A stretch of DNA of 64,000 nucleotides from Scatophagus argus (taxonomy: Eukaryota; Chordata; Actinopteri; Scatophagidae): contig NC_058504.1 in assembly GCF_020382885.2 (NCBI RefSeq), positions 10,468,519 through 10,532,518 of the forward strand, in the 5' to 3' direction. Made by a program: the position numbers and the translations under genes. Below the pieces are notes generated by a model. It did not search any database, had not been told where the DNA came from, and saw nothing but the letters and a program-made list of their open reading frames with translations. The stretch's first letter is position 1, and every line of letters begins with the position of its first letter. Positions 17,159 through 54,771 of the stretch are shown piece after piece.

Positions 17159-20100
17159 ATGGCGGCGGAAGGCTGTGAGGAGCTGAGCGGCAACGGGGAG
17201 CTTTCTTCAGGTAGTTTGATGTACCTTAATGAATTTACAATACACAGTTTTGTTGTTTCGCGGTTACTGCTGTGGTTATTTTTCATCTGCAAGCATTTTG
17301 AATAAATAAACCGAGTATGCCTGTTTTAAGGGAAAGCATGAAAAGCTAAGCTAGGCTAACGTGATTTCAACACATCGCGAAACAGCACAGTGTTATGTTG
17401 AATGACTTAAACTAACTTTCCTTCCTGTGTTTAAGTAAGTGTCCTGCGGCTGCTTGTCGCTTTTCACCACAAATATATCGGAAGTTTTAAAGTCAGCGAC
17501 AACCAACCAGTGAGCTTTTTATGAATGAAACGTAGCTCTGCAGGTGTATACAGGTGGTGTTTCAAGAAAGAAAAACGATTAGATGTTTTCGTCATGTGTG
17601 CATCACCAGCCTCGGGCAATGATTAATGTACCCCCATGTTTGACTGCTCAATGTGATCTGTAAAGACTGAGTTTTTATAAAATCACTCATAGCAATTAAA
17701 AACTATTTGGATTTACTGCTACTCTGTAATTCTGATAAATGTTGCATGCGTATATGCAGATGTGTGGGTTTTTCACCCATGGCGGTTGCTGTTGTGTTAG
17801 GACCACTAGAGGTCCTTTTCCACAAAACTGTTGAGGCACAGAGGACCTTAAAACTTGAATGAATGAATGAATGAATGACATCACATTACAATCATGTGGC
17901 CAGTAGTGTATTTTTGTTGTTTTATGCATTTAGTCTGCCAACAAACTGGATGTCATGAAAATTTCCCAAACAAATGGCTAACAATATAGCAATATGTTCA
18001 GTAGTTCTTCTTGTTTTATCATTTACTAAGTAAGAGGGGAAAAAAGAAAACAGCAGCACTCAAGTGTCTGTGTTTCCTTTGCTACCGCACCCCAGAAAAT
18101 AGTCAAGTTAAGGGGATTTGGTAGGAAACGTGTTGTGAAGTTCAAGACATTTTATCATGCAGCCATGTCAGTGCAATCTGGTGAAGTTGAAGCAAGTATT
18201 AACTTCTCAGTCATTTATTTCTTAGTAGCATTAGCTGTGTTATGTTGAAATTAGTTTTTGATCCACAGGTTGGGGGTATGTTAAAATGGCTTGCTGTGAC
18301 ATTGTTGTGCTTTTGTAATGTCCCAATTAGCTTTATAAAAATCTGTCCAAAGTTAAGGCTGAAAAGTAGTAGTAAACAAGTGGGACTTGCCTGTGTAATG
18401 CTCTTCAGTTATGTCTGTGAAGATTCTCAGTCATCAGTCATGGTGTATATAAACGTTTATCTGAAGGCAGCTGGACTTGCTTGAGATTCTTGAAGATGTT
18501 TCACTTCTCATCCATGAGGCCTCTTTAATTCTGGAAGACCTGGCAGAACTCAGTGCACAACTCAAGCAAGTCCAGTTGTTTTTGCAGCAACCTTTAGCCA
18601 TTCAGTTATGTAAATGATGTGTCTTACTTAGGAATATTTTACCATCTTCCCTCTTTAGCCATGGAGACTTGTGAGAGTCCTGCATTGCCTCCAACTGACA
18701 TGACAGAAATGTCGGAAGAGAATGGTGGTGCCACTGAGGCTCATGAGGCTCATGAGGCCCATGAGGCCCATGAGGCTCACGTGGCCCTTGAGGCTCACGT
18801 GGCCCATGAGGCTCACGTAGGCCCGGACCCAGATTCCTTCTCCATGCCCCGAGCCGCAGAAGATGAGGAGGGAGAACTGCCCGCAGACTTTGAGCGTCTG
18901 TGGAAGGCTGCCCATGACAATCCTCAAGACTTCACCAGCTGGACCGACCTGCTGCAGTACTGTGAGCAAGAGGTGCGTGTACGAGCTGTCGTCCCTCAGT
19001 AATGATGCATTACCACCTTCAACTTGAAATATTGACTTCTAGCGCCCCCTTGAGGCCACAAAACGTGTTGGTCTGTAAGCTTGCTTGAGGGCTTAATTTT
19101 TCTGTCATCTGTTCAGAGTCACGTCACAGCATCACGCAGAGCACTAGAGGCTTTCCTCTCTCGATACCCGCTCTGTTACGGCTACTGGAAGAAATTTGCT
19201 GATCTGGAGCGCCGCGCTGGGTACAACAACAAAGCAGAGGAGGTAAAACCTGAGATTTTATAATTCTGTCTCTTTTCTTATCCACACCATTAAGATTAAT
19301 TTTAAGCTTGTTAAGTGTTTTTCACAAATTTTTATGAGCTAATGAATATGATTGTGGTGTGTTGTGTTAGGTGTGTGTTCAGGGTCTCCAAGTAATCCCT
19401 CTGAGTGTAGATCTGTGGATCCACTACATCAATCTGCTGCTGGGAACACTAGACATGAACCTGCCTGAGTCGCCCCAACGGATTCGCAGGTAAATTAATG
19501 TCTGTGAGTTTCAAGGCCCTGCCAGTTTACCTTCTGGAGCATTTACAGCTCAGATATACTAATAAAGTTTGAAAAAAATTAAAGGAAGAAGCAAAGACTT
19601 TTCTGTTTCTGAAAGTTGTTTTTATCGTTTTGTTTTCCGACCTCATCCCTCAGTGTGTTTGAGGATGCAATTCAGGCTGCAGGTCTGGACTTCCACTCAG
19701 ATCGGCTTTGGGATCTTTATGTTGAGTGGGAGAAGGAGCAGGGGAACATGAGGAACGCAGCAGCCGTCCTGGACAGAGTTCTCAAAGTCCCCACTCAGCT
19801 CTACAACACCCACTATGACAAGTAAGACCACACAAATATGGACCGTGTGTGTAAGTCAGTCTGCATTTCTTGAAGTAAACTTATAACAGAAAGAATATTG
19901 ATGTAAAGTGTTATTGTGTGCTGTTGTGACGATGGTGCTTTCACTCACACGGGGCTCGCCATTAAATCAACATACTGTTGTGATCTTTTAAATATCCTCA
20001 TCTTGCTCGAGCTTATTCCATTTTTCGCTCCCATTAATCTCATTTTGCATCCCGCTTCGTCTTCACTGCTGCCCTCACCGTCAGGTTCAAGGAACACCTG

Positions 20101-27237: not shown

Positions 27238-30200
27238 TCACTTTTTGGTAACAACCAGCACAGCTGAAGGCACCAAACCTAAAAAGGGAAAAATGGAAAG
27301 TAGTAGAAAAAGGTCAGGTGGAGCTTCTGAATTGACTGTTTAAAGTAAACAGACCGCGGGAATATGTTAATGCTCTGTGTAAGTGCTCTACATTCACAAG
27401 TAGCTCCTAGTGCAGCGCTCACCCAGTTCTTTAAGGGGCTTCTCCATGTCCAGTTCAGTGTATACGTGACGGGGGTAGGGAGACAGCAGCGTGAAGTCCT
27501 GACCCTCAGGTGTGTTGCTGTTCACCTGCACATAGACACGCACTGCCGCCAGCGGCTCCTGGGCCTTGAACACCGTTGTGATGGTTGAGCCGTCCAGCAG
27601 ACGGACCTTTACAATAGATGAAGTAAACTTTCCATTTGACCATGCCATACCAAAAAAAGTGTAGAATTAAAATATTTTTTGGGGGATATTTTAAATATAA
27701 CCTTAATATCTAACGTTGAAAAATAAGTCTTTACCCAGCCGTTAAATGTGTCCTAATGAGCTCAGGTTTGTGACAAAACAACAGATGTGAAGCACTCGTG
27801 TTTAACATGTGCTTTGTGCTTCAGTGGTGTGAAGTGCAGCACGTGGGTGTGTGAGTGTAACTGAAGTCCCTACCTGAATCCTGGACTCATCGTACTCCTT
27901 CTTAGTGGGTGGAGGGCCGTGACTGGTGGGCGATGAGGGGCTGGGCTGGGAAGGTTGGGACGATGCGGTCGTGCTCGTTTGTCCACCGCTTCCAAACTAA
28001 ACAGGCAAAACAAAGAGCAAAGTTGTTGTTGGTTACAACAGAAGTGGTCATGATAAAAAGGAGAAAAAAAAAACAAAAATCGGACAAGTAACCAATGGCT
28101 GGGTGACCTTTTGTGCTCTCTCCTCTCTGTCTCGTGCGATCTTTTCCTTAACCCTTTGCCTGATGGGAATAAAGACAAGCAATACAATGACAGCTGTGAA
28201 GAATGTACAGCAGTTCAAAAGGATTTTCAAACTTTGATAGTCTAATTTGACTCTTTGAGGCATTTCTTGTCCTATCAGTTTCATATCTTGTACTTTGCCA
28301 CAGGATTTCCTCCTGAACCTTTGCTGCTCCCATTATTTCCACCCACTGTTTATTTTGTGGATGAAATAAACAGTGTAAGCATGATGTAAGCATGTCATTC
28401 ATCCATGTTTGTACTGTCATCTGCTACATCATTACCTGAATAAATGTGTTATAGAGAATACCTTACCTTGCCAGCTTGTCCTCCATCTTCTCTCTCCGGC
28501 GCTGCTCAGCAAGTTTTTTCATATCATCGTCCATTAGCTTTTGGCGAATCTGCTGCAGCTCTTGGCCCTGTTTCCTCCGCTGCTTCTCCCTTTCCAACTC
28601 TTCATCCTGCTCTCGCTGTCTTCTCTCCGCCTGCTTCACCCGCATCAGCTCCTCTAGCCTGAACGACAGACACCGATACAGGCATCAGCTTACCATCAGG
28701 CCAATTTTTGCTTTTGCTTACACACTGAAGTTGTTCAGTGTCTCTTAGCATGACGAGGAATGCCTAAACGGAAAAAAACTAAGTATTTCCAAATTATGTT
28801 TGGAGATAAGCATCAAACTACTGGTCACACACAGGGAAGAGATGGTGTCTGTGGTCAGTATTCTCTGACCTTTTAACTTGCTCAAGTCTCTCCTCCTCTG
28901 TCATTGGCTTCTTTGCACTGTTTTCACCACCACTGTAACTGCTCTCTCCATCTGCTGTCAGTAGAGCAAAACACAAACACACATGAGAAAATGAAAGCAA
29001 AAGAAACAGAGAAAGAGATATGCATTGTGTGGTCTTGTGGTAACCATAAATCTTAGCAAACATCACAAACTGGCGAAACAAGAATACACAGAGCAAAAGA
29101 AACAGAAAATAACCAAAAGGAGGGTAAATTAGCAGCAACTCTCAGTTTAATAATTTAGATTTTGTATGTTGTTTTTAAATGCAAGATGCAGGCTATTTAA
29201 TATGGATAAAATCCTTCATCACATGTGCAAATGTGCAATTTTATATCAATAAATGTTAATTTTTACTATTGACTATTTAACTGTTTATTGATTAAATTAC
29301 CAGATGGGAATGTCTGTTTTTCACTCATTGTGTGAACTAAATATCTGACAAATGAAGAAACGTCATACAAAAAAAACAACGTTGGATAGTCCTAATACAC
29401 TACAAAAAATGGGACGATACAATGGTACAACCCTGATTACAAAAAGGTTGGCATGCTGTGTAAAACGCAGATAAAAATAGAATGCAACGATCTGCAAATC
29501 ATTTTCAACCTATATTCAAATTAATACAATATAAGCATGAAATACTTATTGTTCAAACTGATAAATTTTACTGTTACTTGTTTATTAGGATGCGTCATAA
29601 GAGCTTTCCTTTGGAGCTTGTCTAGGCAAGTCCAATTGGGAGGAGACCTCGAAGTAGACTCAGAGGTCACTGGAGGGTTTAAATATCCCATCTGGCCTGG
29701 GAAAGCCTTGGCATTCACCAGGAGGAGCTGGAAAACACTGTGAGGCAGACGGGTGTTTTGAATACCCTGCTTGGCTTCCTGCCACCACGACTCAACCGCA
29801 GACAAATACAACAAAATGTGTCCTATAGAGAAGCGCACTGTGGAGCAGCTGCAGTCATGTAAGAAAGAACGGGAAAGAGTTTCGCTTTCAAAACTTCAAC
29901 AATTAATGTCCTCAGTTCTCAAATGCTTACTGAGAGTTATTAAAAGCAAACACGATGTCTCTCCGGTGATAAACATGCCCCTGTTCCAACTTTTTAAGAA
30001 GGTGTTGTTCAAATTCAGAATGAGTGTGTATTTATAAATAAATCAATAAAGTTTCTCAATGTGAACTTCAGTGTGACCGTCTTGTCTTTGTCCCGTATTC
30101 AGCTGAGTATAGGACGAAAATGATTTGCAAATCAGTGCATTCTGTATTGATTAACATTTCCAGAGTCCCAACTTTTTAGGAATCAGGGATGTATTCAATT

Positions 30201-30772
30201 CATTTGACAGCAGACAAATTTATATTGTTCATCCCTAGATGACCCCTAGATGATGGGGGTGTCTTGAATGCTTCCACCACAATATCATGACCCTTTCTGC
30301 CCCCAAATAGCACAACGCACCCTGATCTTCAGCGGTGTCTGCTTGTGTTGGCTGTTCGGTGGTGGACTGGCTCTCGTCTTTTCCTCCCAAGACATCTCCT
30401 ACAGGCGGCACATAGGGTTCATCGATGTCTGGGTCGTCCTCATGTTCCATTAACCTGAGGAGAGCACATCACACTTTGTTGAGTACGAGAACACAGAGGA
30501 CTGCATTCATCCAGTTAGTTCAATACTATTATGTGAATTTTGGCATGTGTCACACACTCACCAGTCCATGGCTTGTTCTATTCCCTGGTTTCCTGTGTTG
30601 GCCACTGCTTTCTCCCTTAAAACATAAGATAAAGGACAGAGTTTAACTTCTTTCAGTGAAGTTTCAAAAATTCTATTAACCATTTTGGAATTTGTGGATT
30701 TAGTGTCACTCACGCTCTGTTTCTTTCAAAGCCCATCTCCAGCAGACTCTCTAGTGTTGTTTGATCTGCCAT
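27238..30772 (-). CDS. ubxn1: UBX domain-containing protein 1 (SAKS1)
   Basis: UBXN1 is a cytosolic p97/VCP adaptor that binds ubiquitin through an N-terminal UBA domain. Mammalian UBXN1 restrains ERAD and RIG-I/NF-kB signalling. Minus-strand exons in order: 30772-30714, 30615-30562, 30454-30321, 28954-28870, 28658-28467, 28159-28108, 27996-27874, 27606-27423, 27278-27238. The sum is 924 nt, 307 residues (human 297). The UBA (residues 1-45) shows [17 protein letters not shown] and [21 protein letters not shown] long charged coiled coil (about 85-195) begins [20 protein letters not shown] Ser/Pro linker follows, then a C-terminal UBX (about 230-307) with [19 protein letters not shown] and ending [13 protein letters not shown]. 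The p97-contact loop reads YPR where FPR is usual. A splice acceptor at 30778/30779 shows that the 5' UTR is split. Confidence 0.95.
29428..30191. mobile_element. TA-flanked non-autonomous DNA transposon with nested LINE piece
   Basis: The left end CAACCCTGATTACAAAAAGG and the right end (minus strand CATCCCTGATTCCTAAAAAG) form imperfect terminal inverted repeats. Each is flanked by TA (29426-29427 and 30192-30193), the target duplication of Tc1/mariner elements. Subterminal text such as GATCTGCAAATCATTTTCAAC and GTTCAAACTGATAAATTTTA matches a very common fish MITE I recall. The middle is interrupted by a LINE 3' fragment. It lies in the 1.37-kb ubxn1 intron 30320-28955. Confidence 0.8.
29613..29808 (+). 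pseudogene. LINE reverse-transcriptase ORF, 3'-terminal fragment
   Basis: Read on the plus strand, the piece encodes [14 protein letters not shown], an in-frame TAA, then [16 protein letters not shown] and LLGFLPPRL. This is the characteristic end of a common fish LINE ORF2 (RGRPRTRWRD...LAWERLGIP.EELE...LLPPRP in my memory). It is inactive: short, stop-containing and with no RT core. It lies within the TA-flanked element listed here. The LINE clade was not determined. Confidence 0.65.
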
Positions 30773-31400
30773 TTTGACCTGAAACAAATTGTATAAGTAA
30801 CGTTACATTAACACGCGACTTTCATTTTGACACAGAGACACGCCAAGGTTACTTATTTGCTGTTAATTTAAGGTAAGTCACGATAATGGCCCCGCTTTAG
30901 CACACGTGAATTTACGTCACTATGTAGCTAAAGTCAATACAACAGCTCATCCTTTAGCTCAGTCATGTCTGAAGGAGCTAATTTACATTAACCCCGTAGC
31001 ATATTCTGCGAGAACAAATACTTAAACTTTCTAAACTAGCAGCCTGGCAAAACGTGTTTACTCATGCTCACTAGTTGTAGATATATAATGTCACAGTCAT
31101 TGTAATGCTGAGTGCTAAAATTAGCATTAATTTGGCTACATATCAAATTAGCTTCAAAACTAGCTTAGATGCCTCGCTGGTTAGCACGATTTAAAACGAT
31201 CCGAAGCGCTAATGTGCTTTCCATTACGTTAGCTATTAATGACTGTTTGTATGTTATATGTGAAGACACACACAAGTGTTATTTAATCTGCAACAGAGAT
31301 AATATCAACTAATATACTCGTGAAGACATGGGTAGTTAGCTACTCACACATCAGTCAAAGACACTTCTCGTCAACAGCGCTTCAACAGTACGGGAACCCA
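30773..31400 (-). promoter_or_regulatory. ubxn1 5' UTR intron and probable promoter
   Basis: The minus-strand acceptor before 30778 (TTTCAG|GTCAAAATGG) implies an upstream leader exon. A good donor (GATGT|GTGAGTA) with its exon edge at 31348 is the best candidate, so transcription probably starts near 31350-31400. No TATA box was seen. The intervening intron is rich in short GCTAGC/TTAGC-type palindromes but has no gene. Confidence 0.45.
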
Positions 31401-34340
31401 TATGGAACAAACTGTACAGCACGAAATAGCGATTATTTTCCACGCTCTAGCTAAAATATAAAAATGTACAAAATATGAGGTGTCCTGTGTAATGTAGAGT
31501 TTATAATATTCATATGGAATGTATTGGAGTAGATGTACAAAGCAACACAAAATGTAAATACTCTGGTAAGGTACAATAATCTGAATCTGTCTGGTGAAAC
31601 CCTCCAAAGAGGATATTAGTTGTAAGATATAAAACACATCCTTTGTAAAGCAGGAAATCTGGTGCCAGTTAAAATGGGAATCATTACCTCTGGTGTTATG
31701 ATGTACTTAATTACTTTTCTCCTCGGCCATTCCCAGTGTTTCATTATTCTTTGTGCTGCACAAACATTTCATGACGTGCTACACTGCCTTTGAAAAGAAA
31801 TGTCATTCAGTCTGCTAATGTGTCTTGATTTTACAGACTAGTGCAGCTCCCTTGGGACATTATCAGATGAAACTGGAATTCTTTCAGAAACTGGAATTCT
31901 TTCAGTTTCTTCCCGATTAGGATTTAAAAGTGTTTTTTGCTTGTAGCTGAGTTCCTGGAACTTTCTTGGTCTGGGTAATACATGAGTAGATGGTGAGAAG
32001 GATTGAAAACTAAATGAAGATAACAAGAAAAGAAAAAAATAGGTATCATAAAAGTTTCTACAGTTAAATCAGTTTTTAAGTGACCTTTAGACTAAATTAT
32101 GCGGAAATCAAACAGGCTCAACGGGTTCTTTGTTTACTCTAAAATAAGAGCAAAAGTAAACTTTGACTTGCTTCTTTGGTGCATCTGCAATTAATTGATT
32201 AATTTAGTTATTTAATTGTAATTATCTCTTTCCAATGAGGTATATCTATGGGTTTTTTTGTTTGTTTGTTTTTGGGGGGCTTTTTGTGACAGCAGAAGCA
32301 GGTACCTGAAATGGCCAGGTCTTGTGCATGTGAGGAGGCTGAAGTGCTTTGAAGCCAGATTGTGTTTCTTATTGGCTGCTCTCTATCTTGTATGATTTTA
32401 TTCCATCCTTATGTGTCAGTGGATGTTGAAACAATGCAATTTGCTGACTTTTATGGGCAGGTTGGGTCTGTTACATATTTACAGTAAGTGTAATGATTAA
32501 TTTTTTTCTCTCCCCCACACAGTCTTAAGCAGCCTTCATTCAAGAGTCCACCATTACTCAGGCACAGACTTCTGTCTCAGCCTGCTCACTTCCTCTCCTC
32601 TTTTAAAAGCTCATCCTAACCTTCCTCACACTTTTTTTGTTTGTTTGTTTTCCACTTTTCTGTCTTTTCTCACAGAGTTGTTGCCTGAAATGAGCTTCTT
32701 TTGCAGCATTTTCTTGGTGAGTATGGACTTTTTTTATATTTCATTGTGACCAATGAAAAATGAAATGAAAATCGGTTATCCCAGGAGACGTTTTATTTCA
32801 TCATATCAAACAAAATAACATCTAATTTGTAGACTATAAAGCATGCACAGGACATCTCTAGTTTGCATTCACACAATGATGATCATGTAATCTGTTTTGT
32901 ACCTTGTATTGATTAAATATTAACTACACCCATTCTACAACTTGAGCAGGTAGTTGCTCTAAGTGCATTCATTTTCTTCAATCAGTAAAAAGTCAGTCAA
33001 TGATAATCTTTTGAGCAGGTTTTTTTTTAATCTCATTTGAGGCTATAGGATAGGCTATAAAGAGAGACCCCAAATGCCTATTGAGGAAATTCATGAAATC
33101 AGTAAAAACTGAATTAAGCTCCCGATTGGCTGCTAAGCAACAAATCTGCTTTCATTCTGTAAATTGTTTGATGATTGTGTTTACCAAGACATCAATTTGC
33201 ACAGGTGTTATGGGGCTAAAATCAACATTTCTACTATCATTTCAGTAACAGACTGCAAAAAAACTTATCTGTGTTCAATCAGTCTGTAAACCACAATGAC
33301 TGTGGGAAATCTTACTACTGATATATAATATGTTCATAATAGAAAAACTCGATTTCCTGTCCCAGTATTGATCAGATTCTCTGTCCACACTTGATATAAA
33401 ATTACTTAAATGCTTTAATTCTAATTTAAGCGCTGAGATTTACAGATCCTCTGAATGCACTGATAACACTTTCACAATAGAATTATAGCTGTGTGGGCAA
33501 AGTCAAAGGAGACAATAGGAGTGAAGGTCTCTTTAGTCTAGCTTTAAATTGCTTTATGGCCTTTTTTTAAAAAAAAAAATGAAGGAGAAGGTTAAGGGTC
33601 AAAGATCAGTCGGCAAAAGTTAAGAGAGATTACGGGAAAATAAGGACACACAAGGAAATGATGCAAACTTACATTTACAACATATGTTCAAAGTCATGCC
33701 TGTGCCTGTATGTCAAAGATTAATTTCAATGGACTAAAGGCTAAATATCATTTGCTGAGATGGTAGTACATTTTGATACAATGAATAACCCTGATTTTAT
33801 TAGTGTCATAAGAGTATCGTGTTTCTTGGAAGCAGTAAAAAAAAACAAGATCAGGAGACATAAGGAATACAGTGGATGATATCTGACCATCTCTTTATTA
33901 GGTGGGCGGTATTATCACAGAGGGACTCAATTAAATGAGTGGTGAAATTATGCTATGCAGAAAGTGAGATTTGACCAAAAGAGGGCAGCATTATTTCATA
34001 GGCCTATATGTGAAACTTTTGTCACATTGGTGCTATTTAATTCAAGTATTATGAAATTCTTATATTTGCACTATTGTCAGGTTCTAGTTTAAAACCATTA
34101 TAACAATAATGCCGTGATTCTGATAATGCTGGGAACATTTTACATGCCTTATAAAATGCACATTAAAGGCATTAAAGTGCATCTTAATTGTCAAATGATT
34201 CTGATCACATCAGAGAAACACCAGAAGTAATTCCAAACACCTTCTGTCTGTTTGTACCACTGAATGATATGTCAGCAGAAAACAGTACAACCGAAATTGT
34301 GCTGAAGTGAATGCCACCACCCTGTCATGGTCTACACATG
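31401..34340. other. Gene-poor interval with one possible non-coding exon
   Basis: No protein-coding exon is supportable here. A tandem duplication (two copies of GAAACTGGAATTCTTTCA) lies around 31868-31906. One well-formed exon-like unit, 32676-32716, has a pyrimidine-rich acceptor (TCTTTTCTCACAG) and a strong donor (TTG|GTGAGTATGG). Its 41 nt have no convincing coding sense, and it may belong to a plus-strand host transcript of the downstream microRNA. Confidence 0.4.
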
Positions 34341-34344
34341 CTGT

Positions 34345-34440
34345 CAGCTGTGGGTCTCACCAGCTGTAACAGCATCTCCATATGGAAAAACTCTGGCTTC
34401 CAGTGGAGCTGCTGTTATCTGTGGAGGGACACCTCTTGTC
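34345..34440 (+). ncRNA. mir194: mir-194 precursor hairpin
   Basis: The 5p arm, 34365-34386, begins TGTAACAGCATCTCCATATG. It has the exact miR-194 seed (GTAACAG) and differs from the remembered vertebrate miR-194-5p only at nt 11 and 18. The 3p arm, 34400-34421, begins CCAGTGGAGCTGCTGTTATC and differs from human miR-194-3p at one position. The arms pair around a 13-nt loop (34387-34399), and flanking bases (GTCTCACC with GGAGGGAC) extend the stem. miR-194 marks intestinal, liver and kidney epithelium in vertebrates. The site is about 1.5 kb upstream of the ehd1 ATG on the same strand. In human, MIR194-2/MIR192 lie beside EHD1, so homology and position agree. A 100-codon open frame across it is considered chance. 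Confidence 0.9.
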
Positions 34441-34585
34441 ATCGAAAAGCTGCTGGGATTCTCCATGGACTACAGTTCACACATCTGACTTTCAAACATC
34501 ACTGTGTTGTGTACATTAATGACTTCTATTTTTTGCTTCTTCATACTGTCTGCCTTTTTTTTTTTTTTTGTTTATTTCTGTGCAG

Positions 34586-34620
34586 GATGTTATTTCCAAT
34601 AAAATTAAGTTGAGACATTA
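34586..34620 (+). other. Possible terminal exon and poly(A) signal of the mir-194 host RNA
   Basis: A polypyrimidine tract (34556-34580) and TGTGCAG acceptor are followed by a short stretch containing AATAAA at 34598-34603. This would terminate a plus-strand transcript about 165 bases past the miRNA hairpin. With exon 32676-32716 it would place mir-194 in an intron. Purely inferred from signals. An (AG)n tract lies at about 34672-34690. Confidence 0.35.
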
Positions 34621-35867: not shown

Positions 35868-38800
35868 ATGTTCAGGAAAAACTTGAAAAAAGACCCCGAG
35901 CTGTTTCAAAACGTGTCGGATGGGCTGCGGCGGCTCTATCGGACCAAACTGTTCCCCTTGGAGGACACGTATCGATTCCACGATTTCCACTCTCCTGCAC
36001 TCGAAGATGCCGACTTCGATAACAAGCCTATGGTCCTCCTGGTGGGTCAGTACTCCACCGGGAAGACCACCTTCATCCGACACCTCATGGAACAGGACTT
36101 CCCCGGTATGCGGATTGGCCCCGAGCCGACCACGGACTCTTTTATCGCCGTGATGCACGGTGAACAAGAGGGGGTGATACCGGGTAACGCTCTGGTCGTC
36201 GACCCCAAGAAGCCTTTCCGGAAACTCAACGCCTTTGGTAACGCGTTCCTCAACAGGTAAAGTCAGTGCCAAGTCCCCAGACCGCATGAAAGAGCTTACA
36301 CTGAACAATGCCATACACTAGGATTATAGGAACTGAGCCCTGCACTTATTTATTAACGTGTGAATGAAATGAACGAATGTGTGCCATGTCATTGGTATGC
36401 TTGTCTTGAAATATCATTACTTGATACAGCTGTGTGTTGAGGAAACGTGTCATAACAGTGCATCACCCGTGGTTTAAATGCCCTCCCTACAAGTTCTTAC
36501 ACGTACTGTGATATTTCAAGGTAAACTCACACTGTGGTGTTGCACAATGTTCCCAACAGTGTGTGTGTGTGTGTGTGAGAGAGAGAGTTTCCCCTCTTTC
36601 ATCATGCTGAGAGAATGCGGGTATTTAGTGTCAATAGCTATGTGGAAGAGCCACTCTGTGTGTATTACAAAGGAAAGCACAGGAAGGTGTTTTCCGACAT
36701 CTTATTCATTTGACAATGAAGTCCTTTTGCTTTGAACCAGATCATACCAGTTCACAAATGTACCTTGACCTTCTTCTGCCACTTCTTTGGAAAAGCACCT
36801 GGCAGAGTCACTGGTGACAGATCGTTTTGTCCCAATGTCATGGTGTGGCCCCTTGAGCGTAGAAATAGTTTGCTAGGCAACGAGCTGACCTTGTCCTGTC
36901 CACGGATGTCGGTGCCATAAGTTTTGCACCACCTAGTCATATAAGTGATATTTCATCAGTAGAAGCCGACAAGCTAGCTCCCTTACTCACTACCTGGGAG
37001 TAGGCCTTGTGAAATCTTATCACAGTGGGGTTAAAGGTTTTGGTGGGACTGTCTATCTTCCTCTAGTATTGTTTCATCATGTCTGCAGGTGTTTCACTAA
37101 GGTTATAGTTAGGTGTCAAGACATTCAGCTTGTTAAAGCGTGATCCACATGACCGATGATCCATAGATTGTGAGGAAACACCCAGAGCACAAGTTTAGAT
37201 CAGTTATTCAGCCTCATGTAAAAATGTTCTCAGTGCAAAAAACTCCAGAGAACTACAGTATTGTTCAGATGGAGAAAACACTTGACAAAAATACCAACAG
37301 CAAGGTAAAAGCAGAACAGAAACAAGTCCGAGCGCAAGGTGAGATGAGACAAGGCAAAGATGCTATGAGTCAGAACCAATGTGACGGTGCTCGGCGAAAA
37401 CTAACGCATCTTAATCCCATCTATTGTGTGTGGATTTGTGATGACATCACATGACTAACATCCGATTGCCAATAGCCTCACTTCCTGTAGAGGATGTGGG
37501 TATATCCCCTCTGTCCACAGAGGCCAATGTGGTGTCACACGGCAGAGCAATAGCCAGCCATACAAACAGACCAACTAATACACCAGTGACTAACTTGTTG
37601 AAGGCCTTGACTTTAATCTGTTATTAGTTTCAGATTATCAAGTAGGTTGTGGGGCCATATGCTGCATGTGTACAGACACTCAAACTGACACTTCCCCAGT
37701 TAGACCTATTTCCTATTATCCACTTGCACCCCTTCCCTCATTTATGTGGAGTGTTTGTCTTATCTTGAATGAGTGCAAGCGTCTGCCAAACAGCATCCGT
37801 CAAACTGAGTAAAATGAAGTCATGCAGCTCAGATAACACTTAAAAAGAGTTGTCGGTCTTCATATGCCTCGATTCACCTCTCTGGAGTTCATTACGGACT
37901 TGAGGGGAAACCAGATAAGATTGTGTATAAAGAAAGGCTATTGTCCAGTTGTTAAACCGTTGGACACAGTCCTGCGATACCATGAGACTTGCTGTTCTCT
38001 CTGAAGTCAGTCTGCATCTTCGTCTCAGAAGCATGCTCAGGCTTGAGGATCACACACTGGCTTAGAGAAAGTCTCACATGATCGTGCATAACAGAATATG
38101 TGTGTATGACAATAGCAGGTGGATGACCTGTTTGAATGGCTCTTTGTATGTGTAGATCTAATATATAATTAATCAGTTTTGATGACGCATATCCCCGAGC
38201 AGGCCTACAGCTGATAAAACTTCAGTCGAGAACTAGATCCAGACAAACATTTGGAACTGGGCTGTTTTTGGCTCTGACTGGGCCAGTTTTCCTCTTAGGA
38301 GGCCAAAAGTATTTGAAATGGCCATTAGCTGTTACTTGGTTAAATATGTTTTTTTGCTTCTAAACACAGATATCAAAGATCAGATTGTTATTTCAATGTA
38401 TAAGTTGGAGGAGAAAATACCATGTCATAGGGGCACACAGCACCTTGTTCAACGTGATGGCAGTTCGGCTGTGTAGCTCTTTAACCATAGTCATTCAAAC
38501 TACAGATTAGCCTTTAACTACCAGCCTCAGATAGGGCTTACCTCGGTATAATCAGTTATTTATGAAGAGAGTAAACAGAAATCATGTGACCCACACACCT
38601 ACAGTTAGCTCTTGGATTTGGCAAACCCAAAGGGTGCCAATTTTTTTTTATATTTTCCATACTATTTTCCATTATTTCTGTTCATTAGCAGCCTGGTTTC
38701 GATTTGCGTTCCATGAAATGTGCGCCGCTTAGTACTAAGACTTAAATCATACACGTTTCCCTGAAAGTAACTCCTTTTCCACTTCCAAATAAATCTGCAT

Positions 38801-39583
38801 ATTTCTTTCAAACTTCTTGTTCCCTTTAAGTTAAAATAGCACTACAGCCAGAGAGTCTGAAGTGTGTTTGTACTCTCTGTAAGCCTCAGTAAAACCATTA
38901 GTCAGCAAAGTTTAAGTTCCGCACAGGCCTGCACTGTCCTGTTCCAGTACACCGACCCTGCACTTTATTGAGAAGTTGCACATGCCAAACAAATACACAA
39001 GGACAAGGATGGATAATATATGGATAATTTACTCACTCAGTTTCTGGGAAATTTTTTAGAGGAAGCAAGTGTGGAAAAGTGACTCAAAGCTGAGACCTCC
39101 CTGCTCACATCCCCTGTGCTAACGACAGCCTTTCCTCTTCTCTATAGGAAGTTGAGGTTACCGTGCGAGGGAAGGTTATAGGTCAGGAGGTGGGACACGA
39201 GAGGGGCGAGCATGGTTTTGTCACATTCTCAACGCATAATCGGACAGCCAAGGATGTCCAATAGCTAAAGGCTCTTGGGTCACCCGTTCCTGGTGGAGTG
39301 CTCTTTTTCTAAGAATTCCAGCTTGAGTACGTTGGAGCTCTGTGTGGAAAATGCAGGGGTAGATGGTTAAATGGAAAACCTTTGCCAAAATTCCAATGAG
39401 ATATCATACACCATCATCTTTGAGAGGGAGTAGAAAATCTGCATGTTTGTTATCTTTGGCTGTCACTGTTATTGTAATGTAATACCATGCATAGGATCTC
39501 CATTCTCTCATATTTCTTTGGCTTGTTCATTGTCCTTGGATTTTTCCTTTTTCCTCCCTGCGTGAGGTATGTTAGGGTTTGCA

Positions 39584-39616
<33 letters not shown>

Positions 39617-42107
39617 TGCCCTCAGTGTGGTTCCAACAGGAATGTAAAGGCCCGGTTCTCCCAGTCTTATGACCCGGTGCCTCTGAGCTCACACTGGGAG
39701 TATCGGTTCAGTTTGAGTGAAAGGGCAGCAGAGCGAGAAGTAGTAGTCTGACCTGTGGGCTTTCTTAACAATCCTCTTCTTTGTCCTGAGTGGGACGTGG
39801 TGGGTTTATGCAAAACCACTCGTTCTCATTGCTTTATAGTCTGTGTATTTGTCAGTGTGGGTGTGTGTGATGTTCCCCTTTTGGAGGCCATTGTGTAGTC
39901 AATTATGCTGCATTAGGAATGACTCAGAGCTGCAATTCAGAACTTTTAATGTGTTGTCCTGGTGTTTCCCTAACATTGTTACACCCGCCAAACTGTTTGG
40001 GAAAACTCAAATCATTACGTAGTCTCAGTGTTTTTATTGCACGACGACTATTCCCAGGTTTTTAATCCCAAGGATTTAGTGCTTTTTGTTGAATATACTA
40101 GATTCTTATACTTCTGGTCAGACAATACGTGCATTTTGAAAATGTCACCTTGGGCTTAACTTAGGAAAGTTGCGACAGGTGTTTTTCAATATTTTCTGAC
40201 ATTTGACAGATCAAATCATTTAGCGTTATTATTATAAAAGTGATCTTCTGTTATCAATTTACTGTCTAAATATGAACAATTTGTAACTACAGTGATCTCT
40301 GAAAAAAGAATAATGGCAGCACCCTGATCCTCAAATGTTTCTTTACGACACACAGCTTCTTTGTGTTTTAGCTGTGTATCTTTCCCAGGAAAGTATTCCA
40401 CTAATGTTAATACCTGAGAACATGGAGGTTGTCACTGGAAACCTCCAGAATAATGTCTGTTTAATGTTAAGCTTATGTATAAACACCCTCACCCACCTGT
40501 TTTTTGCACCTCCCCCTCTCTGCCCACATACCCCGTCCTCTGTCTCTTTCTCTTTTACTTTCTTTTCCTCTCTTCCCCGCCCTGTACTTTCCCCTCGCTC
40601 CTCTAGGTTCATGTGTGCCCAGATGCCTAACCCCGTCCTGGAGAGCATCAGTATCATCGATACTCCTGGAATCCTGTCTGGGGAGAAACAGAGGATAAGC
40701 AGAGGTCTGTCTGACATAAACATCCACACTGTCACTCACCTATTCACTTCCACTACTGATGTGTATTAAAGCCATGTCCTCTCCACTCAAGAACCCTGAA
40801 AAACAGAGTGTTGCACAAATTCAAACCACCCACAGGAAACCACAAACTCAGATATGAAGAGGAAACACGCTTAAACAACCTACATACTCTTCCTGTCCTT
40901 AAGTATGTCTTTGGTGTTTCTATTTTATTATGCACGCTACATAATCCATGCTAACATTTTGGCTCACAGTACTGTCACACTCGTATTCAACTCACAACTC
41001 CCTCAGGTCAAAGCCTAACCAAACAGGCCATGTAAATCCGATAGAGGCCTTCACAGCTTGACAGCGGCAAGGGAAGGGTGCAAAGCACTCTGAAGTTTAG
41101 TTCCTGTCTCTGTACCTGTGGTTTTATGTGTTTCCTTTTTTTTGCGTTCTTTCCTCTTTTTATGTTTTTCTTTTTTTTGTTTTCATTTCTGTCTGTAGCA
41201 GGTTTATATTAAAATATTAGCTCAACAACAGTATACAAAAATATTTGCTTTATTAAGCAGCATGCCACCTATTTTTATTCCTATGCTGCAGCATCTTATA
41301 TCCGAGTCGTTTCCCTGCGCTTAGTGGAAATAAATCATTTCATATTTTTATCACTTTCTCCACGTGCTCCAACAGTTCTGTGACCTTGAGGGTCACATCA
41401 GATTTGCTACATACACAGTTTTACTTCTGATGACCTGACAGAATGCAGGCAGAAGATAATAGCACAGCTGAGCACAGCTTCTGCTTTTTCTACCTGACAC
41501 AAGCCCCATCAAGAGGAAGCGCACGTACAAGCAGTGGAGTTTTTATGTACTGCAGGGAAAGGATGTGAAGTAAAATGGCAAACGGAGCACAGAGATTCCC
41601 AAAACTGACCCCCTCCCACCCCCCACGTCCACCACTGCTTGTGTCATACGGAGAGCTGATAAACAGTCAGCTAATCTGTTCTTTATTATGGAAGCTGATT
41701 TCCCACGAGACACAGCAGTACAAAAAATATCAAGCAGAGTCAGTCAACAGCGGGTGGACTAAAGTGCAAATGTTTTGAATAATCTTTTAAGACAATGAAG
41801 ATGGTGTTTTTCTCAGATTTGTGCTGCTTTTCTGTTTCACGTCACTCTTAATTGAATACCTTTGAGTTTTGGACTTTTGGATGCACTAATCAAGTCATTT
41901 AAAGACATTACTCTGGGCTTTGGGAAAATTATGGCCGTTTTTTTTTTATTATTGTTTTCTGACATTTTACAGATAGTGAAAATAAGGGTTGGCTGCATCC
42001 CTAATAAGAAGCAGCAGGAGTGATGGAAACAGTATGAGTGGTTGGTACTGAAAAGGTCAAAGAAGGGACTGTAAACAGACAAGTGTAATTGATAAGAGAC
42101 CTAAGAA

Positions 42108-42143
<36 letters not shown>

Positions 42144-45100
42144 AGACTGTCTCACGTCGAAGTGACCCCATCCTAAAAGAGGAGGAGCATATGAAATCTG
42201 ATGCCTCATACCTCAGACAGTTTTGTTTCTATAGATACATACTTATACATTCTTGCTCTCTAAGACACACACACACACACTCTTTGTCTTTCACAAGCTC
42301 ACATGCACTCTCACATGCACACGTTATCCTCTTAACTGTTTCTGTATAAACACAGATACAGTACTGTACTATCCAGACATACTGTACTGACTGTGTCATA
42401 TGTAAACAGGACCGATTGGATTGTGCAGCTCAAGTGTGACAGGCATGTGTGTATATGTGGCAGTGCTCTGCGTACTGGCCCAGTCAACCAGCACGGTCTG
42501 AAGGTCTCCCACAAGCATTCAGGAAGAGTGAAATGGAGTCCCTGTTTTCATTGAATAACACTTTGATAGTGGATTCATTTTTGATGAGGTCAGCACGCAT
42601 GTCTCAGTGCCTCTTCCTCTGTGAATCATGAAGTGATGAAAACTATAATGAAACTGTGATTTTGCAGAACTGGATGGCTTCTGTCCCGTAATCACTGCTG
42701 ATGACTTGACATGAATACTGACATGTTTCACATCATTCAGCAAATTTTAGTTTAGTAAAGAAAAAAAGCTGAAATTTGTTGAATTTGAACTTGTGGCCAC
42801 AATGTAGATCCTGTAACATTGTTACAAAGAATAGTTTGACATCTTCTTAAACTTATTTGCCTTCTGGCCCACAGTTAGATGAGAAGATTAATACCATTCT
42901 GCTAGTCTGTATGCTAAATGTGAAGCTACTGTCAGAGGCGGTAGCTTTCCTTAGCTTAGCATAAAGACTAGAAACAGGGAGAAACAGCCAGCCAGCAAAC
43001 AGAAACCAAATGCTGGCGTGTGACAGGGGAGGCACATGGGACATGTCATTCAGAGGAGCCATGGCCAGCTACCTCTTCTGCTCTTCTGCTCACAGATGTT
43101 TGCCTGCCCCTGCTTCATTGTCTGGTTGTTAATTAAATTCACATTGGCACCAAAGTGCGTCGGCCCGCCGGGGAAATGCCCGGTATTCCAGATTAGCGGT
43201 GTAGTGCTGCATATGTTGGAGACACAGCAGTTGTTCAAGTTATGTGCTATAAGTAAGTCTAAGCTTGAGCAGCTGTCTCTCCGTCTGTTACCCTGACGTG
43301 TGTGTTAAAAACAGACTTAGGAGAAAACAAGCAAATCATCTCAGCTGGCTCCCACGGGGATCTTGGACTTTAAATATTCCCCTTTTATCCCCTTCTACTT
43401 TCACATGCCGTCATACGCCCAGACAGACACAAACTCCTTTCGGCCCGAAGGTGTTTTCCTGCGATCAACCTGTACGTCCATCTCTTATTACATCTTTCTT
43501 TTACTTTCCTTTTTATCCACATGCTTGTCATTCTCTCCCTTTCTCTTTCCTTTTCTTCCTCTTATTTTCATCATAGCACTTTCTCATTCTGTACAGCTCT
43601 CTGTCTACCGACTTTCTCTGTCTCTCTTTTGTATACACATGCTCAGCCAGACAAAATCTGCCCATGTTGGAATGCAAGTGCAGCAGATCTGGCAGTGATT
43701 GTGCGACAGCCGAGATGAGCTTTGAGCACAACTGCATTCTTCTCTGATCAGATGACACACGGACACTAATCAGAACCATAATTCTCTCTTCATCAATCCC
43801 TCCTCAGCTCCTCGAGGCAAAGGATAGCTCAGAAAGAAAAAGGGTTTTATGTAATTTGAGTTAGTCCCACTGTTTCCCAAATACCCAAAGGCAGTGTGTC
43901 ATACAGTGAGTTTCTGTTCTCTAGCATTGACAGAAAGTATTTGTCGCTGGACCCTTTTTGGCGTTACTGTCACTGACACTGCACAACGTTTAACCTGTGC
44001 TTTCGTATTTGCTGACTATCCTCAGTGTTTGCTCTCTTGCTTCCTTTCTTTATCTGTCATTTTTGGCCAGCTAGTTGTTTATAAAGCAGAGGTCATTTAA
44101 TGCCTGAGGCTAGTATTGTAGATTTTCAAGTCAGGACTTAGTCCAAACTTTAGCTTTAAACGCCTCGTCTGCTGTCTCAGTAAAGCTAGTTAATATGTAA
44201 CCAGGGGAGAAAGCCCTGCCTTTTAAAAAGCACTTATCTAAACATAATTGGCTCAACATGACTTGAAATATGAACAGACCCATGTTTAAACCTGCTCCAG
44301 CACACAATCTGTTGACTGATTTGTCTGCTTGAGCTCTTGTATTTCTCTGCACTAGGGTTCTTGGTGTATTATTTGTAAGATATTCGTGAGATATGCTTCC
44401 ATGCTAACATAAGTGGGAAAACGGACAATTATAATCCATTGTATGCTAGTAGGCTACCTCAGAGTGTAACATCCTCAAACGTTATGAATACCTTCCCCAA
44501 GTCATGTTTCGCTGGTGACTGTCATCTGATAGCGTAGCAGGAATTGCTCTCCTGTGCAAACAAGTTGGCACTTCACAATATGAGCCTCTTATCACACGCG
44601 AGCTTGGTACTGGATTTGTTCTAAAGTCATCTATAAAATTTCTTTCCGAACTTGCATCATCCATGTAGTGTACTGCAACTGGAAACTAATGTCGTAGTGT
44701 TATTCTGACCTTGTGTCAGTTAGTTATATCAGAGTGGGAAACAAAATCCATTAACCTGACAACAAAGACAGGTTACTGGGAAACATCATTAGAGGGCACA
44801 GCTGTGCAGCTCCCATCTTTAATCAGCCAATATCTTCTCCTATTCTCTCTCTCCAGGCTATGATTTCGCTGCAGTGCTGGAGTGGTTTGCAGAGCGCGTG
44901 GACCGTATCATCCTCCTGTTTGACGCCCACAAGCTGGACATCTCCGACGAGTTCTCCGAGGTGATCCGAGCACTGAAGAACCATGAAGACAAAATGCGTG
45001 TAGTGCTGAACAAAGCCGACCAGATCAGCACTCAGCAGCTCATGAGGGTCTATGGAGCTCTGATGTGGTCTTTGGGAAAAATCATCAACACGCCTGAGGT

Positions 45101-47899
45101 AAAGAAGCAAACAAACCTGTTTTTAATGTTTGTACTTTTGTGTAATCCACAAACGTATTTCAATGGACAACATTTCAATCCCATTCAATCGTCAGTCAGT
45201 CTGGACAGAGTTCAGATGACCCATCGTAAGGATACAGTAATAAAATAGTGACAAATTACTGCGGCTGCAGTTTGTCATTGTAATAAAAGACACAAGAAAA
45301 AATACGTGTGTTCATACTATTGTATGAATGTAACAAAAGTCAAGTTTTTAAACCATGTGTTTGAAACCCTGTATACTATCTGTTACCATGTGACCCAGCT
45401 TGTCTTGTGATTTTTCCCCTACTGTGTAGTTAATGTTTGATGCGGGGCCATATTCATAAACCGTTTCCAGAGAAACCTTTGGATCATGGAGGGAATTATT
45501 CATTGACTTTGAGAGTGCATTGTATTGTGAAGCCTGTCTACAGAATGTGAAGCACAGAACACACTTTTTCTTTAGTGTTGCTTCGCTGTCAACCTGTATC
45601 ATCCTGTATTGCATTGTCACACATCCTGTTTGTTTGTTTTGAGTATATTAAGTGTTTATCTGTCTCCTTCAAAGAATTTCTCCCATGTGGGTGTGGGCAG
45701 TGAAGTAACCTGTTGAACGGTGGAGATTAACTTGTACAAACTTTATTCCAGGTTGTGCGCGTATACATTGGATCATTCTGGGCCCAGCCCCTATTGGTCC
45801 CTGACAACAGGAAGTTGTTTGAAGCAGAGGAGCAGGACTTGTTCTTGGACATCCAGTCGTTGCCACGTAACGCAGCGCTACGCAAACTCAATGACCTCAT
45901 CAAACGAGCTCGCCTCGCCAAGGTCAGTATCATCAAAACTAGCTTTGGGCTAAAGGCTAATGTCACATGCAGATATGCTCACAATGACGATGCTAACATG
46001 CTGCTGTTTAGTAGTTATAATGTTCACCATTTTAGTTTAGGCTGTTAGCATGCAATCATTTGCTAATTACCACAAAATATATCTTAGCAAAACGTTCAGC
46101 CTAAATACAGTCTAAAAATTCCAGATTAAAAAGCTGCATCAACTCATCTTATTTTCACTCTCTCTCTTCCTCATTCTTTTACCACTACCCCCGTCCTCCA
46201 GTCCCACAAAAAGATTTAAAAAATTTGTTTTGCACAACTTTGCTCGTGTTTGGTTTCTTACTTAACCAAAGGCAGAAGTTGTTAAATTTTAAAGTTCCCC
46301 CCCCCCATGAAAACACTGCTCTTCGAATAATAAATTGTGTCCGACGTGGTTCTCCACGAAATGTTTGAAAGAATCTACTTCCTTCTGCATCATTTGAAAA
46401 ATCCAGAAGTACGCAATTAGTGAAAAATGTTGAACTACTGGATATGAGATGTCTCGTTGCTGATAAGTCCTCACTTTCAGTAAACAAACACTGGAGGTTT
46501 CACAATTCCAGATGATGCGTGTTTAAGTTGATTACTGGACCCTGATTGATCTCCAAAGTTATTGTGATGTCATGAAATTGTATGAACACGTCCTGAACTC
46601 ACTCACTTAGCACACAAAAACTTCACCCTTTGGCAGACAAATGTGAAAACAGAAGTGTCAAAGTCAGCACATACATGATTCTGCACACTCAAACTCACGG
46701 TGGAAGACACTCAGTACACTCAACTTTTACTTTTAGGAAATAACTAAAAATTCTGAAAATATAAGTAATCCCAGAGTTATCACAAGGGCACAGCTCAGTA
46801 ATAACTGAAAATGTGGTTCTGTCCTCTTTCTTTTATGATACGATATGTACAGGTTCAAGCCTACATTATCAGCTCTCTGAAAAAGGAAATGCCGAGTGTC
46901 TTTGGAAAGGACTCCAAGAAGAAGGAGTTGATAGCCAACCTGGGAGAGATCTACCATAAGATTGAGAAGGATCACCAGATCTCACCTGGAGACTTCCCCA
47001 ACCTTGCCAAGATGCAGGTGAGATAAAACAAAACAAAACAAAACAAAACAGGAAATCTAGACTACACAGTAGACTTTGATTTGCATATTTGATGAAATAA
47101 CACATCTTACATTTTGACATGTCGTATAAATCATTAGAGACAAAAGTTCAGAGTAGAATGACCTTCCAACCTTTACTCTCTTCACGTCTTTGCCCTTCTT
47201 TCCTGCCCTTGCCCTCCAGGATGGGCCAGGATGGGGATGAGATTTATTTTTCCTGGTTTGTCAGGAAATCCTGCTTCTTGTATGCTGTTCCCATTGGTAG
47301 CCATTGAAGACAGATCTATTTCTATCACCAATTCCTGTTTTCTCTTAACCACCCCATCCCTTCAGGAGCTGCTGAATGGCCAGGACTTCTCTAAGTTTTC
47401 AGCACTGAAGCCCAAGCTGCTGGAGGCGGTGGAGGACATGCTGGCCAATGACATCGCCCGTCTCATGGCCATGGTGCGTCAGGAAGAGGCCTCCATGCCC
47501 AGCCAGTCTGTCAAGGGTGGAGCCTTTGAGGGAACCATGAGTGGTCCCTTTGGTCATGGCTATGGAGAGGGCGCTAGCGAAGGCATCGACGAGCTGGAGT
47601 GGGTGGTGGGTCGTGACAAGCCTACATATGATGAGATCTTCTACACCCTCTCTCCCATCAATGGCAAAGTGTCGGGTGCCGCAGCCAAGAAGGAGATGCT
47701 AAAGTCCAAGCTGCCCAACACGGTTCTGGGAAAGATCTGGAAGCTAGCAGACGTGGATAAGGATGGCCTCCTTGATGATGAGGAGTTTGCCCTAGCCAAC
47801 CACCTGATCAAGGTGAAGCTGGAAGGCCACGAGCTCCCGCCCACGCTGCCAGATCACCTGGTGCCGCCGTCCAAACGTGGGACAGTCCAGGATGACTAG
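35868..47899 (+). CDS. ehd1: EH domain-containing protein 1
   Basis: EHD1 is a dynamin-like membrane-remodelling ATPase of recycling endosomes and ciliary vesicles. Exons: 35868-36256, 40607-40704, 44857-45098, 45752-45922, 46853-47017, 47366-47899. The sum is 1599 nt, 532 residues (human 534). P-loop: GQYSTGKTT (residues 60-68). DTPGILSG and VLNKADQ are the G3/G4 motifs. [20 protein letters not shown] is the family signature. A helical stalk follows, then the linker GPF motif at 415-417, and a C-terminal EH domain with the EF-hand [12 protein letters not shown] (484-495) and [16 protein letters not shown]. Paralogue choice: [36 protein letters not shown] and the mir-194 linkage favour EHD1 over EHD2/3/4. 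The N-terminus [14 protein letters not shown] lacks the usual MFSW start, perhaps typical of one of the two teleost ehd1 copies. The donor of exon 2 (G|GTCTGT) is weak. Confidence 0.96.
36257..40606 (+). other. ehd1 intron 1 (4.35 kb)
   Basis: No coding exon or RNA gene is supportable. A TG/GA microsatellite lies at about 36558-36587 and a (GT)15 tract at 39586-39615. The remaining open frames are short and compositionally random. Confidence 0.6.
39586..39615. repeat. (GT)n microsatellite, about 15 units
   Basis: An uninterrupted GT dinucleotide tract in ehd1 intron 1. Likely polymorphic; no function inferred. Confidence 0.9.
42110..42140. repeat. (GT)n microsatellite, about 15 units
   Basis: A GT tract in ehd1 intron 2, followed 130 bases later by a short CA tract (about 42265-42280). 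Confidence 0.9.
42828..43010. repeat. Percomorph dispersed repeat (TTAGCTTAGCATAAAGACT family), partial
   Basis: The ordered phrases AATAGTTTGACATCTTCTT, GTTAGATGAGAAGATTAATA, TAAATGTGAAGCTACTGTCA and TTAGCTTAGCATAAAGACTA, then AAACAGGGAGAAACAGC, match a repeat I recall in many spiny-rayed fish genomes. The 3' half of the consensus is missing. It is non-coding and probably a non-autonomous DNA element. Confidence 0.7.
43135..43235. repeat. Possible transposon fragment
   Basis: GGCCCGCCGGGGAAATGCCC followed by GGTATTCCAGATTAGC resembles a phrase common in fish interspersed elements (GGCCCACCGGGAAATGCCCGGTATGCCAGAT). Only about 100 bases are recognisable. Confidence 0.35.
45945..46095. repeat. 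Percomorph dispersed repeat (GTTAGCATGCTAA family), partial
   Basis: GGGCTAAAGGCTAATGTCAC, GATGCTAACATGCTGCTG, AATGTTCACCATTTTAGTTT and GCTGTTAGCATGCAATCATT, then TTTGCTAATTACCAC, follow the order of a widespread percomorph repeat I recall. It lies just inside ehd1 intron 4 and is non-coding. Confidence 0.65.
47025..47050. repeat. (AAAAC)5 pentanucleotide repeat
   Basis: Five units of AAAAC start 8 bases after the ehd1 exon 5 donor site. It is close enough to the splice site that length variants could matter, but no effect is shown. Confidence 0.85.
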
Positions 47900-54301: not shown

Positions 54302-54771
54302 ATGGCCGTCCGCCGCGGGTGCGTGAACTCGCTCTGGTCGGGCACCGAGCGCGTCCGCATCGGAGAGCGCCTCAAAGCGACGCTGGCCGGCGTGCTGGAG
54401 CTTGAGCTGCTCAGGTGCAAACACCTGGAAATGGTGGACGCCGCGCTACAGGACCGAGCCTGCGCTGCCGCCAGCGCCAAAGAACCACTGGCGGCGAAGG
54501 AGGGCAGCGGAACCACGGAGAGCGTCGCCTCGGATACCGAGCATGGCTCTGCGACATCCCGCAGGCAACAGGTCAGTCAGCCTCTACATGACGAGATTAT
54601 TAAATATGAATGCAGGGATGATGGTGATCTGCCAACAAGCCGGTCCCTCTGCGGCTCAGTAGGCAGATTTTATCGCTGCCTGGCGGCGCATGGCTGTGCC
54701 GAGAGCTTAACAAGAGTGAGATGAAGCCAGAGACCATCCAAGCATGCAGCCCGATCATTTTACACAGCACA

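Follow-up and report, generated by a model that had tools for sequence, protein, structure and literature searches.

The 64-kb window analysed here, by which we mean the whole stretch of 64,000 nucleotides, contains a short hairpin upstream of an ehd1-like gene, and this locus raises the question whether the hairpin is a genuine mir-194 gene in the place of mammalian MIR194-2 and, if so, what has become of the microRNA with which that gene is usually clustered. In mouse, mir-192 is clustered with mir-194-2 (PMC3940925, excerpt), and in sheep EHD1 and ATG2A flank the mir-192/mir-194 pair (PMC4958965, excerpt). An earlier note on this DNA had described the hairpin as a miR-194 precursor preserved next to ehd1. 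Our analysis makes it very probable that the hairpin is indeed a genuine mir-194 gene at the MIR194-2 place, upstream of ehd1 and on the same strand, with the standard mode of action being the likeliest. The hairpin and its parts are as follows:

34352-34431, plus strand: mir-194 precursor hairpin, matched by the full RF00257 model (cmscan, 73.1 bits); fold of 34340-34445, -40.9 kcal/mol
34351-34352, plus strand: basal UG at -14/-13 from the predicted 5p Drosha cut, read from the sequence
34365-34386, plus strand: predicted mature miR-194-5p, two mismatches to the consensus, seed GTAACAG intact
34387-34399, plus strand: inter-arm stretch of 13 nt; unpaired terminal loop of the fold at 34388-34397 (10 nt)
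34400-34421, plus strand: predicted mature miR-194-3p, 1 of 22 positions off the printed miR-194-3p

Scanning the window with 4227 Rfam families returned mir-194 as the sole family at or above the gathering score. The match on the plus strand covers positions 1-82 of the 82 positions of RF00257 and reaches E 1.7e-15 for 64 kb, at 73.1 bits as compared to a gathering cut-off of 52 bits. The same hairpin was also recovered by a search of the whole genome. With this above-cut-off full-model score, the 5p seed GUAACAG and one stable two-arm duplex hairpin, the locus belongs to RF00257, which confirms the proposed miR-194 precursor. The antisense strand of the hairpin likewise matches the model, albeit at 41.9 bits and below the cut-off, which is expected because the hairpin is a near-palindrome.

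Both arms are present, as had been claimed. The 5p arm, TGTAACAGCATCTCCATATGGA, differs from the consensus at 2 of 22 positions, namely A to T at position 11 (34375) and G to A at position 18 (34382). These are the very changes described before as lying outside the seed, which is intact at 34366-34372. Both changed bases are unpaired in the Rfam structure as well as in the fold, and the stem is therefore untouched. A 5p-like match occurs once in the 64-kb window, and none of 100 shuffles contained a match at up to three mismatches. The 3p arm, CCAGTGGAGCTGCTGTTATCTG, was rightly called near-identical: it deviates at a single position of 22 (position 8) from baboon miR-194-3p, whose sequence is printed in PMC6420018 (excerpt) and was used as the 3p reference. 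When 34365 is set opposite 34419, the 3p strand protrudes at its 3' end by 2 nt (34420-34421); the 5p overhang in the predicted duplex is 1 nt, not 2. The printed miR-194-3p form is one that we take to be the MIR194-2 product, and the window 3p arm, 1 of 22 positions off it, is thus of the MIR194-2 type. The loop of 13 nt given earlier corresponds to the distance between the arms, and the unpaired loop of the fold measures 10 nt. The UG at the base of the stem is a motif of microRNA hairpins. Scanning the window 5p sequence against viral contigs gave 0 matches. The first 17 letters of the variant, in either spelling, had no match in the main texts of the papers searched, which may simply not list it.

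Folding of 34340-34445 yields one hairpin of -40.9 kcal/mol (z -3.12; 1 of 200 shuffles equally stable), in agreement with the hairpin proposed before. The duplex region of its stem has one internal mismatch and one bulge and is otherwise essentially closed. Three chosen stem pairs, 34370-34414, 34378-34406 and 34383-34402, keep a probability of at least 0.962 with 50, 100, 200 and 400 nt of flank. By itself, fold stability does not set the mir-194 hairpin apart; its energy ranks second among 220 windows of 106 nt on the plus strand of 29-40 kb, the most stable of which starts at 36101, within the first ehd1 exon.

The place of the hairpin is defined by its two neighbours:

35868-47899, plus strand: ehd1-like gene with six coding exons joined at GT-AG borders, 532 aa; Pfam EHD_N, Dynamin_N and EH
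35868-36256, 40607-40704, 44857-45098, 45752-45922, 46853-47017 and 47366-47899, plus strand: coding exons of the ehd1-like gene, with GT-AG borders
27397-30772, minus strand: UBX-domain gene, read as ubxn1; Pfam UBX on 27397-27666, start codon near 30772 from minus-strand frames

The three Pfam domains of the ehd1-like gene were matched by scanning its exons one by one. Its ATG at 35868 follows the hairpin end by 1436 bp on the same strand, for which the figure of 1.5 kb upstream was a fair rounding. Compared with solved chains, among those listed of which EHD3 is absent, the C-terminal part of the protein is closest to EHD1 (261.1 bits, versus 222.5 for EHD4 and 164.4 for EHD2). At full length EHD4 ranks first (899.3 bits), since the solved chains include no more of EHD1 than its C-terminal domain. 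The hairpin thus adjoins an ehd gene that in its C-terminal part is closest to EHD1, so that the parallel drawn earlier with MIR194-2 and EHD1 holds. Mammalian mir-194 presumably also shares its strand with EHD1. Side and strand of the window copy agree with those of the sheep pair between EHD1 and ATG2A (PMC4958965, excerpt).

The mammalian cluster also includes mir-192 downstream of MIR194-2, and this partner was not found in the window. Across the window, the Rfam mir-192 model found nothing that passed its cut-off, and relaxed searches of 29-40 kb (E limit 5) and of 34.0-35.9 kb (E limit 10) were also empty. Likewise, an 18-mer of mir-192 had no match in the window with up to three mismatches allowed. 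Local alignment of the genome's own mir-192 hairpin to 30-36 kb scored 23, a value reached by 16 of 100 controls made by plain letter shuffling. A diverged mir-192 in the window was rejected on the basis of the Rfam scans, the 18-mer search and the local alignment. Hence, the word "preserved" in the earlier note applies to the hairpin and not to the cluster. The locus, with a mir-194 in the position of MIR194-2 but no cluster partner, is a gene of a known kind. It is mildly unusual in that the usual partner, miR-192, is missing at ehd1 and present by a second miR-194 on another chromosome.

This second copy emerged when the whole genome (570.7 Mb, 48 contigs) was searched for mir-194 and mir-192. 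Among the best 56 of 89817 candidates scored, two mir-194 loci above the cut-off were found, that is the window copy (contig C12) and another at C14:6532821-6532901 (minus strand), the latter with 76.1 bits as compared to 73.1 bits. A single mir-192 above the cut-off was found among the best 61 of 142109 candidates scored, at C14:6532638-6532712 (minus strand, 80.5 bits). It lies 108 bp past the C14 mir-194 on the same strand, with mir-194 coming first, which we take to be the order of the human cluster as well. The 5p arm of the C14 copy has the unchanged consensus form, and its 3p arm differs from that of the window copy at positions 9, 10 and 19. From 5p start to 3p end, 43 of 57 positions are identical between the two hairpins. 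Projected onto the C14 copy, 31 of the 37 pairs of the window fold are kept (23 unchanged, five changed on one side, three changed on both sides) and six are broken, including 34376-34408 in the upper stem. Local alignment of the two loci scores 60 with the hairpin and 29 with the hairpin masked, both values being without shuffle control.

Around the C14 cluster, an adenylosuccinate synthetase gene closest to isozyme 2 lies 1.9 kb beyond mir-192, an oestrogen-related receptor gene 39 kb away and a peroxiredoxin-5 gene 48 kb away. The DNA-binding piece of the receptor matches an unnamed chain with 81.1 bits, ESRRA with 79.3, ERR2 with 71.8 and ERR gamma with 70.9; the corresponding values for its ligand-binding piece are 107.9 bits for ERR2, 103.6 for ERR1 and 103.1 for ERR gamma. 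None of the 43 ehd matches in the genome falls on C14, and the best value in 110 kb of C14 is E 3.3; a further ehd gene next to that cluster was accordingly rejected. Isoleucyl-tRNA synthetase matched C3 and C15 only, with no match on C12 or C14 among the best 6 of 37 candidates scored, and the idea that the C14 cluster sits in an IARS2 intron was rejected for its lack on C14. Comparison of 806 window frames of at least 40 aa with the 110 kb of C14 revealed no ordinary coding neighbour in common. Of the 14 frame matches, ten fall at 57.6-58.0 kb and three at 29.4-29.5 kb of the window, both repeat-like, and one is the hairpin itself. At 57608-58051 the window carries transposase-like fragments, possibly Tc1/mariner-like judging from their sequence, which recur on C14 near 6528.2-6528.7 kb with 62-75% identity over the longer pieces. 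The short stretch at 29366-29521 recurs at two places in C14 and is probably an interspersed repeat.

How do the two copies relate? We lean towards the C12 and C14 loci being copies of MIR194-2 that arose in the teleost duplication. Human PRDX5 and ESRRA, which we take to lie on 11q13 near EHD1, have likely relatives in the peroxiredoxin-5 and oestrogen-related receptor genes within 50 kb of the C14 cluster, and if these are true counterparts, C12 and C14 would represent the two products of the teleost duplication. These two neighbours argue against the somewhat less probable, though by no means far-fetched, reading that C14 mir-194/mir-192 descends from MIR194-1/MIR215 and the window copy from MIR194-2, both being old vertebrate paralogues, and that the ehd1 locus lost mir-192. 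Several observations point to such older paralogues: the C14 3p arm is 4 of 22 positions off the printed primate miR-194-3p, as compared to 1 of 22 for the window 3p arm; relative to the medaka 3p as printed, C14 differs at 2 and the window copy at 3 of 22 positions; the gene next to the C14 cluster encodes an adenylosuccinate synthetase that most resembles isozyme 2; and C14 has neither an ehd match nor, within the 110 kb compared with the 806 frames, an ordinary coding neighbour in common with the window. Human ADSS2 and MIR194-1/MIR215 are presumably both on 1q. The window copy is of the same seed family as MIR194-1/MIR215, but unlike that system its 3p arm ends in TTATCTG, as compared to TTACTT in the Rfam consensus. 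However, human MIR215/194-1 reside in an intron of IARS2 (PMC7369991, excerpt), whereas C14 and C12 are both without an isoleucyl-tRNA synthetase match among the best 6 of 37 candidates scored, which speaks against this descent.

For the window hairpin itself, two further explanations compete with a genuine gene. It could be a decaying copy that is still recognisable and no longer functional, the C14 copy together with mir-192 having taken over. Such decay would account for two changes in the normally almost invariant 5p arm, which is unchanged on C14, for the partner mir-192 not being found at the window locus and for the slightly higher score of the C14 copy (76.1 versus 73.1 bits). However, the seed is intact, both 5p changes fall on unpaired positions, and the stem is essentially closed but for one internal mismatch and one bulge in the duplex region. 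Moreover, the hairpin alone aligns between C14 and the window while the flanks do not, as expected under selection on the hairpin. We therefore consider decay improbable. The other explanation, a chance hairpin or one of another kind such as a repeat or a structured exon that merely resembles mir-194, could invoke the energy rank of only second among 220 windows of 106 nt and the antisense match to the model, which at 41.9 bits stays below the cut-off. It is rejected by the full-length RF00257 match at E 1.7e-15 and by the 5p shuffle control (0 of 100 with a match at up to three mismatches), and the place by ehd1, the same as in sheep (PMC4958965, excerpt), likewise contradicts it; we regard its probability as negligible.

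A genuine mir-194 gene, in turn, is supported by the Rfam match, the stable fold, the 2-nt 3p overhang, the basal UG, the intact seed and the unpaired state of the 5p changes, as well as by the pairs of the hairpin that are kept relative to C14 while the flanks do not align. What speaks against it are the 1-nt 5p overhang, the two 5p changes, the one upper-stem pair (34376-34408) that is broken, albeit by the C14 copy, and the HNF1- and HNF4-like sites being at chance level. Acting in the standard manner, such a gene would be transcribed by RNA polymerase II from the plus strand into a primary transcript, from which Drosha-DGCR8 would cut out the hairpin; Dicer would then take off the loop, and the 5p strand would be loaded into Argonaute. 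Loading of 5p would be favoured by its 5' end, at which the duplex is looser, and by its initial U. In Argonaute, the seed GUAACAG would find CUGUUAC sites in 3' UTRs. Expression of the gene would be expected in gut, liver or kidney. In Atlantic salmon, miR-194a/b-5p are enriched in intestine (PMC6356880, excerpt), and in pikeperch mir-194a/b-5p are enriched in larvae (PMC10778745, excerpt), which makes expression of the window mir-194 plausible.

A candidate end of the primary transcript is located downstream of the hairpin:

34586-34603, plus strand: stretch that follows a splice-acceptor-like sequence ending at 34585, from the acceptor-like listing, with AATAAA at 34598

Speculatively, 34586-34603 may represent the last exon and the poly(A) signal of the primary transcript. 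Upstream, one full splice-donor match is listed, at 30873, in a CpG-rich stretch by the start of the UBX-domain gene. One may speculate from these signals that mir-194 has a transcript of its own, with the donor at 30873, the acceptor before 34586 and AATAAA at 34598. The CpG-rich stretch occupies 30801-31400, just outside the UBX-domain gene at its start, and its observed/expected ratio is 0.99 in one 300-bp window and 0.93 in the other. Possibly it acts as a bidirectional promoter from which mir-194 is transcribed as well. The promoter of the mammalian cluster has an HNF1/HNF4 signature (PMC3940925, excerpt). In the window, five HNF1-like sites were found as compared to 3.05 expected, a number reached by 20 of 100 shuffles, and the one exact HNF4-like match is at 57779; both kinds of site are at chance level, so that the search did not recover the promoter signature of mammals.

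Set beside known systems, the locus resembles the mammalian MIR194-2/mir-192 cluster (MIR194-2HG, beside EHD1) in that mir-194 lies upstream of ehd1 with a 3p arm 1 of 22 positions off the printed form. It differs in having no detected mir-192, in the 5p changes at 11 and 18 and in its upstream neighbour, an opposite-strand UBX-domain gene that is not recognisably ATG2A. The presence of two mir-194 genes, one of them with mir-192, resembles the mir-194a/mir-194b pair of teleosts such as zebrafish, Atlantic salmon, pikeperch and medaka. In pikeperch, mir-192-5p and mir-194b-5p are clustered and mir-194a-5p exists besides, so that two mir-194 copies, one of them clustered with mir-192, are already in print for fish (PMC10778745, excerpt). 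In the literature on the order of fish mir-194 genes, we found no statement on ehd1 in fish. The 5p sequences printed for medaka and sea bass miR-194a and for tilapia are the unchanged form and match the C14 copy, not the window copy.

The genome annotation gains one reliably placed microRNA gene, and the window and C14 loci offer a clean natural comparison, within one genome, between a clustered and a lone microRNA. Possibly, though we rate this as rather unlikely, the two copies divided their work after duplication, C14 keeping mir-192 and the ancestral 5p arm, and the ehd1 copy, having lost mir-192 and being separately controlled, making the variant 5p with T at 11 and A at 18. If true, miR-194 activity in some tissue or at some stage would no longer be coupled to miR-192.

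More distant genes of the window, as identified by Pfam, encode INTS5, a glycosyl hydrolase family 31 protein and a PRP39-like protein. An 18-bp tandem repeat of 4.9 copies at 18735-18824 encodes a Glu-Ala-His run and sits in the open frame 18598-19002, which matches the N-terminal HAT repeat of PRP39. Finally, a Dapper-like (dact) N-terminal frame at 54209-54721 narrowly misses its Pfam cut-off, with 26.7 bits as compared to 27.
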